DNA from: Anaerolineales bacterium
Lineage (GTDB): Bacteria; Chloroflexota; Anaerolineae; Anaerolineales; Villigracilaceae
Length of the DNA stretch: 64,000 nucleotides
Assembly (NCBI GenBank): GCA_016927315.1
Contig: JAFGMV010000036.1
Coordinates: forward strand, 1 to 64,000
Direction: 5' to 3'
Of the stretch, positions 22,840-24,995 are shown one piece after another; the first letter of the stretch is position 1, and each line of letters begins with the position of its first letter. The position numbers and the translations under genes are program-made. Under the pieces are notes generated by a model. The model saw only the letters and a program-made list of their open reading frames with translations, did not search any database and was not told the origin of the DNA.

Positions 22840-23128
22840 ATACGGAAGCGTAATTCATTGAAACAGCATCAGACCCGTCAAACATGCTTTGGATGGAGTC
22901 GGCCACATCATTTCAGTTGTCAATAAATACAACCACAACAAAGACACAACCGAAAAACGAGAAACACGATTACACTTATCAAATCGGCGTTAATTATGGA
23001 AAACACCGATCGGATTGGGGAAAAGCACCTGTGAATCGACAAAAAATACCCTGACCCTATGGGAAACAAGAAATGCAACTCTGCACTGGTTAAGAACATA
23101 TGTAGATTGTGAAGATGAACCTGACATT
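22840..23128 (+). other. gap between padR and the permease remnant
   Basis: About 290 bases. Part is open in frame with the permease (from 23015), but the residues have no membrane character and no resemblance to an ABC transporter. This is where an ATPase gene and the first half of the permease would be expected. No repeat or terminator is seen. Confidence 0.4.
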
Positions 23129-23746
23129 ATGTCATATATGTTCCCCACGACCGTCCTGCTGAGCGTAATTATTGCCAGTCTGACTCACACCACCCGTATC
23201 GCTCGCTGGCGGGAACAGGGTGTCTTCCGCCGCCAGGCGCTAACACAGGGCCCGCTGTCTGGGCTGCTCCTGGGAGCAGCCATCATACAGATACTGGTGG
23301 GCCTGCTGCAGGGGCTGGTCATGCTGGTATTCGGCGCAGCCCTGCTGCAGCTGTCTATCGACATGCCAGGCAGTCTGATCGCCCTGGCTGTGATGGCTCT
23401 GGCCGCGGCAACATTCGTTGCCATGGGTTCTTTTGTAGCTGCGGTCACCCGCAAAGCGGATATTGCAGGGTACACATTTATATTTGAGCTGCTGCCGTTG
23501 GCCTTTCTGGGAAGCTTTCCAGAAGAAATGCTGCCTGCTACTATGAACGCCATCACTCCCTGGCTGCCTACATCCATGGCGACAGAATTGATCGGTATGC
23601 TGTTTTACAGCGGCCACTTACCAGAAAATACAGCCTTCCACCTGGCAGGACTGTTTGTGTACCCGTTGATATTTACCCTGTTGAGCACCCGCAAACTACG
23701 TTGGGATGGATCACCCGGCAATCGGTTCCCTGGATGGACCCAATGA
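23129..23746 (+). pseudogene. 5'-truncated ABC-2-type transporter permease
   Basis: About 205 residues corresponding to the C-terminal half of an ABC-2 permease: five or so membrane helices with TVLLSVIIASLTHTTRIARWREQGVFRRQALTQGP, FVAMGSFVAAVTRKADIAGYT and the closing PLIFTLLSTRKLRWD. Ordinary ABC-2 permeases have about six helices in roughly 250-400 residues with an N-terminal helix and extracellular loop that are missing here. The open frame extends upstream to 23015 but the added residues are not membrane-like. No ribosome-binding site precedes ATG 23129, and no ATPase gene accompanies it. Most likely a deletion remnant of the transporter once controlled by PadR. Confidence 0.65.
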
Positions 23747-23826
23747 TCCCTTTGCAGTCGAACTTGCCTGTGCTGCCGCACGGGCAGCCGTGCAGCCCGA
23801 CGGGGATCTGTGTTGAGTAGAGGCAG

Positions 23827-24002
23827 ACTACCCTGTTTTTCCCGGAAAACTGTGCCACCCTGCGACCGGAACTGTGACTGTTTTGCAGGTAACCTGTGAC
23901 TGTTTTGTTGAAAAACTGTGACTGTTTTTGTTACCACCTGTCACAGTTTTGGTTGAGAACTGCCGCAGATCCTGTCGAGAACTGCGGCGGGGTTGGTCAA
24001 TG
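23827..24002. repeat. array of eight degenerate 22-bp direct repeats
   Basis: Units start at 23827, 23849, 23871, 23893, 23915, 23937, 23959 and 23981, exactly 22 bases apart. The third to fifth share CTGTGACTGTTTT almost perfectly, and the sixth reads CTGTCACAGTTTTG. The outer units keep the first three bases (A or C, then CT) and most keep a G/A-rich end. The period equals about two helical turns, as in plasmid iterons or transposase-binding sites. Because 22 is not a multiple of three and no frame is kept, it does not encode a protein repeat. Confidence 0.85.
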
Positions 24003-24112
24003 ATCAACCCGGGTAGTTTGGGAAGCGCTGCCGGACCGAATCAGCAGGCGCGGGTTGGCTTTCAGGGGAGATCAGGAGAAAAAGAGGGGATACAATGCTG
24101 TATCCCCCCCAA

Positions 24113-24262
24113 AGGCCATGTCACTGCGCGCCTGCCGGGCGTGGCAGTCTCACCGTAACCATGACTCTGCGAGACGTTCTGAAAGAACGGCGTGGCAGTC
24201 TCACCGCATAGAAAACATATGCCCCGGCGCCACGAGACTGCTTCGCTCTGCTCACAATAACA
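24113..24262. repeat. REP-like palindromic intergenic repeat
   Basis: The 16-base string CGTGGCAGTCTCACCG occurs at 24140-24155 and 24191-24206. Its core GCAGTCTC is inverted as GAGACTGC at 24234-24241, followed by TTCGCTCTGCTCACAATAACA. The arrangement resembles the widespread TCATTGCGAG...GCAATCTC family of bacterial intergenic repeats. It lies 20 bases downstream of the DUF4469 gene. Confidence 0.7.
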
Positions 24263-24281
24263 CATGGCACCATGCTTCTAT

Positions 24282-24995
24282 TTACGGGCTGGCCGGCGGG
24301 CTCACAGCCAGGGTCTCTGCCAGCGTCCCCGGGCGGACCTGATCACCTCCCAACGCCGCCCGCACCTCCAGGCGGTAGACTCCCTCCTCCAGCCCGTCCG
24401 GCGTCCGGAAGATCAGGCTGCCGGGCTGGTTGCGGGCGACGACCGAAACACGCCTCTCGCTGCCGTCCGCCCCGATCAAGTAGATACCCTGGTCGGGGGC
24501 CTGCGGGTCGAACTTCAGCCGGCCGCCGTAGATCCCGGCCAGGCCGCCCGGCGTCAGTGTGCTGCCGCGTTCGCCGCTCTCATAGTCGATGAAGGACTGC
24601 ACAATTGGCTTGGGAACATCGCTGATGACTTTGGTGACGCCGGCGTTTTCAGCGACCGCCCGGCGAAAGCGGGCGCCCGGGCTGACCCGTCCGGCGACCT
24701 GGTGACGGCCTGCATCGAAGCAGTCCTCCGGCCCGTCGAAGTTGCCCTTGACGCTGGCGCTGTAGTTGGCGCTGGGGGTCAGGACACTGTACCCCAACAA
24801 GACCAGGTGTTCGATGGTGCTGAAATAATCTTCCAACACACCCAGGATATCGGCCCTGGTGACGGTCGAGCCGCGCTCGACCATGGTGTTGATAACCGTA
24901 TCCAGGTCAGCGGCGCCGCGGCGCCGGACCCAGGCTGAGTAGACGCCGGGAGCGACGTTCAAGGGGTTTTCACGCAATGCGTAATTGATGCTCAT
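24282..24995 (-). CDS. DUF4469 protein with IHF/HU-like DNA-binding domain
   Basis: A 237-residue protein of the DUF4469 family. The N-terminal half (about 1-125) matches the HU/IHF-like domain of that family: NPLNVAPGVYSAWVRRRGAADLDTVINTMVERGSTVTRADILGVLEDY, then the VSPGARFRRAV region. The C-terminal half is a DUF4469-type beta domain (GERGSTLTPGGLAGIYGGRLKFDP, DQGIYLIGADGS). AGGAG lies seven bases before the ATG. HU-like domains usually bend DNA; the role of this family is not established. It is monocistronic in a G+C-rich patch, with unusual repeat DNA on both sides. Confidence 0.82.
   Translation of the reverse strand: MSINYALRENPLNVAPGVYSAWVRRRGAADLDTVINTMVERGSTVTRADILGVLEDYFSTIEHLVLLGYSVLTPSANYSASVKGNFDGPEDCFDAGRHQVAGRVSPGARFRRAVAENAGVTKVISDVPKPIVQSFIDYESGERGSTLTPGGLAGIYGGRLKFDPQAPDQGIYLIGADGSERRVSVVARNQPGSLIFRTPDGLEEGVYRLEVRAALGGDQVRPGTLAETLAVSPPASP

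Follow-up and report, generated by a model that had tools for sequence, protein, structure and literature searches.

A 22-bp-period array between two convergent genes

Within a 64-kb stretch of DNA from an Anaerolineales bacterium (contig JAFGMV010000036.1, positions 1 to 64,000; hereafter, the window), an array of short repeats with a 22-bp period lies between a truncated ABC-2 permease gene and a gene encoding a protein with an HU-type DNA-binding domain and a DUF4469 domain (Table 1). Read along the minus strand, the order is HU-type gene (24995-24282), terminator-like hairpin (24107-24078), array and, on the opposite strand, the 3' end of the permease gene, which puts the array 280 bp 3' of the HU/DUF4469 gene, beyond the hairpin. 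The hairpin itself was read from the sequence. No credible gene was found in 23747-24281, in agreement with a preliminary description of this DNA, in which the region was already called gene free. Between the HU-type gene and the array, positions 24139-24257 carry GCGTGGCAGTCTCACCG twice, followed by CACGAGACTGCTTCGCTCTGCTCACAATAACA, and resemble a degraded mobile repeat. An AlphaFold model of the HU/DUF4469 protein, made with no alignment, reached a pLDDT of 41 and was not used.

Table 1. Array and flanking features, in window coordinates
Feature	Position	Strand	Basis and remarks
Truncated ABC-2 permease, model positions 158-345 of 347	23015..23746	+	Profile match; convergent with the HU-type gene
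22-bp-period array, dyads each 11 bp	23827..24002	.	Units recognizable from 23849; strong 23871-23958
Terminator-like hairpin plus T-run, minus strand GGGGATACAGCATTGTATCCCC then TCTTTTTC	24078..24107	-	Read from sequence; between HU-type gene and array
HU-type DNA-binding domain plus DUF4469 gene (PF14848, PF14734), candidate binder	24282..24995	-	Pfam; 3' end faces the array

The periodicity is far stronger than composition would produce. Across 23827-24002, identity of the region's own sequence at lag 22 is 0.591, while 20,000 first-order Markov sequences of the same region gave a mean of 0.256 (standard deviation, 0.039) and a maximum of 0.429; with the lag left free between 10 and 60, the highest identity in 3,000 such draws was 0.479. 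The array is the strongest periodic stretch within the entire window and is likewise detected by Tandem Repeats Finder (TRF). Both the period and the coordinates of the preliminary description were thus right, and random sequence did not reproduce the periodicity. Its count of eight units held in part. Scored against a 15-bp weight matrix of the site, four units, starting in that register at 23871, 23893, 23915 and 23937, proved strong (17 to 25 bits), and three more are degenerate and in register (12.6 bits at 23959 and about 5.6 bits each at 23849 and 23981); the first (23827) scores below zero and is not recognizable as a site. Three units of the window array contain CTGTGACTGTTTT, and a fourth has its near-palindromic counterpart, CTGTCACAGTTTT.

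The source genome contains 15 arrays of one family

The array has no partner in the window, as had been noted, but the genome contains 14 more of the same family. A pattern search followed by a unit profile yielded 15 arrays in the source genome (G000), window copy included, all intergenic and on separate contigs (C9, C26, C27, C29, C32, C36, C40, C43, C49, C61, C91, C98, C114, C123 and C126); those on C32, C43, C61 and C98 are short and weak. The few arrays that overlap open reading frames (ORFs) do so with short and doubtful ones, and the reversed pattern (i.e., read backwards) gave zero matches in this genome. The consensus, approximately AAACWGTSACWGTTTTNGACCA, has 15 conserved and 7 loosely conserved positions, and all 46 spacings between adjacent sites within arrays are exactly 22 bp, though the linkers differ.

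The flanking genes are unrelated to one another and encode, among others, an asparagine synthase, an M50 peptidase, an aspartyl-tRNA synthetase, a sulfatase-modifying-factor-like protein, a DAHP synthase, an MFS transporter, an Na+/H+ antiporter, a sulfotransferase and haemolysin III. Most arrays face the start of one or both adjacent genes; convergent genes flank two of them, the window copy and the one on C91. Among the annotated neighbours there was no transposase and no replication initiator, two gene types beside which copies might have been sought according to the preliminary description, and the arrays do not form facing pairs. Rfam placed no RNA family on the arrays, and a reading as RNA hairpins was not favoured, many units pairing unlike half-sites. 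The C27 array (L042:9656-9831) is flanked by two tRNA genes, one of them at the contig end and the other for selenocysteine tRNA. Additionally, the arrays on C126 and C32 (L049 and L116) are both adjoined by a 137-bp stretch, 75% alike (AGAGGGTYTGATAGAAACCCTTYGGGA), which represents another repeat family of this genome.

Dyad centres are spaced 11.0 bp apart, both in these arrays and in those of relatives described below, so that an array consists of 11-bp half-sites in alternating orientation; in the source genome, the sites read CTGTGACTG or, as reverse complement, CAGTCACAG. Several arrays contain a 44-bp super-repeat or, as on C91, near-identical units, from which it follows that arrays grow by duplication of whole units. 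The constancy of the 22-bp step despite changing linkers suggests selection for helical phase, which would be expected if protein dimers bind next to one another along a single face of the DNA.

Arrays of the same period and dyad spacing accompany HU-HIG genes in relatives

The exact consensus pattern of the source genome gave only chance-like matches in same-family and phylum relatives, in an 85,000-species set and in viral contigs, and the corresponding sequence profile (R1) found only weak, unrelated matches in relatives. Similarly, the array upstream of aspS is absent in 29 relatives. When 1.2 Mb of the relative G017 was scanned de novo, 22-bp arrays did emerge, with a different consensus (AAACGAGTCTTAACACGTTTGC), and the profile built from them (R2) matched in 12 of 150 family genomes, mostly at clear 22-bp arrays with letters of their own. 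The search of genome and relatives proposed in the preliminary description therefore succeeded within the genome and, among relatives, for the class of array but not for its exact letters. Several of the R2-type arrays directly follow a gene called HU-HIG (PF18291, Pfam) or HU_rel (TIGR01201, NCBIfam).

A search with one HU-HIG protein located the gene in 39 of the 150 family genomes, and 30 loci were examined. An array was present 3' of the HU-HIG gene at 29 of these, starting between 0 and approximately 340 bp past the stop codon, while the 5' side of the gene was free of arrays at all 30 loci, as were all 58 control segments taken at aspS loci. The top lag was 22, its double (44) or, at two loci with a 21+22 slip, 43. 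Each array comprises 3 to 9 sites at a fixed 22-bp step, but the letters vary, from AATCCTTCCTTGAGAGGTTTT via AAAACATTTAGAAGTTTTT to AAAGATGTCGTGATGTTTTTCC; a constant period with wholly different letters is unlike what is expected of a neutral tandem repeat. By profile score, the linked proteins are members of HU-HIG/HU_rel. A terminator-like hairpin separates gene and array at several loci; elsewhere, the array starts at the HU stop codon. Array similarity tracks similarity of the HU proteins (Mantel r = 0.23, p = 0.002), a correlation that linkage by descent alone could also yield. HU-HIG genes are also more frequent in genomes with an R2-type array (10 of 12) than in the others (29 of 138; p = 2e-5), although this comparison holds partly by construction, seven of the R2-type arrays being adjacent to an HU gene. 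Two genomes without an HU-HIG match (G008 and G057) had no array in the 400 kb sampled from each.

At the level of the class, the link between arrays and HU-HIG genes is very strong, and the window array shares two properties of that class, an exact 22-bp period and dyads every 11.0 bp. The linkage at 29 of 30 loci lends support to two suggestions of the preliminary description, namely, that the repeats form a nucleoprotein or regulator-binding array and that the neighbouring IHF-like (HU/DUF4469) gene is relevant to it.

Some further repeats and genes were encountered in these genomes. One relative (G023) has seven to eight HU-HIG genes. In G017, a dispersed repeat of approximately 350 bp (L160:560-960, L166:17750-18170 and L169:19370-19750) contains a 22-bp array of varying unit number and a terminal hairpin (GAAGAGCCCGTTTCCTTGAAGGAAACGGGCTCTTC). 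A many-copy repeated element in G475 (L106, L108 and L110 to L113) has a single palindrome, AAAACAGTGACAGTTT, beside CCGTGTTCCGTG repeats and is not an array. Finally, 22-bp arrays away from HU-HIG genes adjoin radC in L262, L265 and L272 (G491, G519 and G521, respectively), with the radC call resting on a RadC profile match for L272 and on reading of the sequence for the other two.

Restriction-modification genes often follow the arrays

At 11 of the 30 HU-HIG loci (L289, L291, L294 to L298, L300, L302, L308 and L309), the first gene past the array belongs to a restriction-modification (R-M) system, a figure that is a count and not a test, there being no background R-M rate for these genomes. 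The R-M types found behind this HU-array head are very different from one another. In other cases, NurA (L288) or a transposase (L301 and L303) comes first. Boxes resembling a -10 element (e.g., TGCTATAAT in L295 and L302) often occur 20 to 60 bp past the array, for co-directional downstream genes, with a modest overall excess. This order of HU-HIG gene, array and R-M gene is as expected for a controller and its operator and suggests such an arrangement. At L292:811-1404 (G007), a gene for Cap15, of the CBASS type, lies directly upstream of an array-bearing HU-HIG gene; other defence types adjoin such genes as well.

The layout of the window locus is similar to that seen in relatives, except that neither R-M nor other defence genes come after the array; instead, the truncated permease gene occupies the place where relatives often have R-M genes. 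The idea in the preliminary description that the array is a fossil may therefore be half right for this copy.

A putative operator for an HU-family protein

We consider it slightly more probable than an even chance that the array is an operator or nucleoprotein site for an HU-family protein, the window copy being an orphan. The array would be a multi-dimer protein-binding site, in which alternately inverted 11-bp half-sites set one dimer per 22 bp, i.e., per two helical turns. All dimers would then lie on one face of the DNA, and neighbours could touch across a second dyad, allowing cooperative binding. The array in the window would be part of a class accompanying HU-related genes in this bacterial family, namely HU-HIG (PF18291/TIGR01201) in relatives and its PF14848/DUF4469 relative here. 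The likeliest binder would be the HU-family protein encoded beside the array. In relatives, the gene order suggests that the HU-HIG protein controls transcription of the defence operon. The window copy, called an orphan because restriction genes are absent there, may be a remnant, or the protein may act on it in trans, as on each of 15 dispersed sites. Whether it belongs to its own HU neighbour appears to us about evenly balanced: the DUF4469 gene is 280 bp away, but the paralogue on C87 has no array.

Several observations weigh against this interpretation. First, HU proteins are usually viewed as mostly nonspecific DNA benders and typically bind with little sequence specificity. Second, the window protein (PF14848 plus DUF4469) belongs not to PF18291 but to a neighbouring Pfam family, and its paralogue on C87, although 71% identical, lacks an array. 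The source genome also has two HU-HIG genes (C104:43606-43977 and C36:81334-81702), and only one of the 15 arrays, the window copy, is known to lie next to an HU gene. Furthermore, the half-site layout differs, AAAC-N7-GTTT-N7 in the source genome versus AAAC-N12-GTTT-N2 in relatives, no clear enrichment of promoter boxes was seen beside the arrays of the source genome, and HU_rel genes on six Bacteroidota/Treponema plasmids are without arrays. Viral contigs contained no relatives.

Much of this would fit the alternative that the arrays are operators for an unrelated dimeric regulator of the source genome, with cooperative dimers and two-turn spacing as before and with the HU neighbour being coincidental. 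The 14 arrays not known to adjoin an HU gene, the paralogue without an array and the consensus and layout differing from those of HU-HIG-linked arrays all favour it, and the chance, roughly 2%, that any of the approximately five HU-like genes would have one of 15 arrays 3' of it is not negligible. Since period and 11.0-bp dyads equal those of the HU-HIG-linked class, however, and since the flanking genes make no evident regulon, we regard this alternative as rather unlikely.

We find it distinctly unlikely that the HU-family protein and the array form a recombination or cassette platform for the insertion or exchange of defence genes. While the occurrence of very different R-M types, NurA and two transposases after the same HU-array head, as well as the truncated gene bordering the window array, could be explained in this way, no recombinase gene is regularly linked, the far edge of the arrays shows no consistent core or duplication, and most arrays of the source genome are not beside cargo. 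A neutral minisatellite, spread by duplication and functionless, is improbable: 44-bp super-repeats and near-identical units do indicate recent duplication, and G017 is rich in other minisatellites and has a larger repeat, present three times, that encloses a 22-bp array, but neither the constancy of period and dyads across arrays of unrelated letters nor the linkage to one gene family would follow. Finally, R6K-type plasmid iterons and Tn7-type end sites, both 22-bp tandem sites and both raised in the preliminary description on account of the period, are very improbable, given 15 dispersed copies on separate contigs by unrelated genes with no initiator or transposase among the annotated neighbours, no origin and no paired end, and the lack of a matching array in viral contigs; alternating inverted 11-bp half-sites, unlike simple direct repeats, fit a cooperative protein lattice.

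Relation to known systems and significance

If the array is indeed an operator for an HU-family protein, its nearest functional parallels, by analogy, are the controller proteins of R-M systems and BrxR, from which it differs in fold, site number and site position. Controller (C) proteins such as C.Csp231I are small dimeric DNA-binding proteins encoded beside R-M genes, and, as proposed here, their palindromic sites (C-boxes) are near a promoter and bound by cooperative dimers (PMC4321490); in that system, however, the controller is a helix-turn-helix protein whose sites precede its own gene, whereas HU-family proteins are concerned here and the arrays are 3', with none 5'. BrxR, a WYL protein, is a regulator whose gene is likewise tied to many defence systems and which binds inverted repeats of 11-bp arms, but its fold is WYL/winged-helix and its site, which lies upstream of brxR, is a single inverted repeat whose arms are separated by 5 bp (PMC9122601). 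Searches of an open-access library yielded no description of HU-HIG or other HU-family genes followed by cognate 22-bp arrays and nothing relevant on the array sequences or on HU-regulated R-M systems. Together, the HU-HIG genes, a clade of the HU/IHF superfamily, and their 22-bp arrays point to an undescribed regulator-and-site module.

More tentatively, we speculate that a sequence-specific HU branch, assembling on dedicated 22-bp arrays that diverge fast and co-evolve with it, might serve as a portable control or self-marking head for diverse R-M and other defence operons of one lineage, with the scattered chromosomal arrays as trans-sites. An HU clade that nearly always comes with an array of fixed geometry and changing letters would offer natural protein/site pairs for studying the specificity of a nucleoid-type protein and, as R-M genes often follow, material for studying the control of defence operons. 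The array class would also account for dispersed intergenic arrays otherwise filed as minisatellites or iterons.
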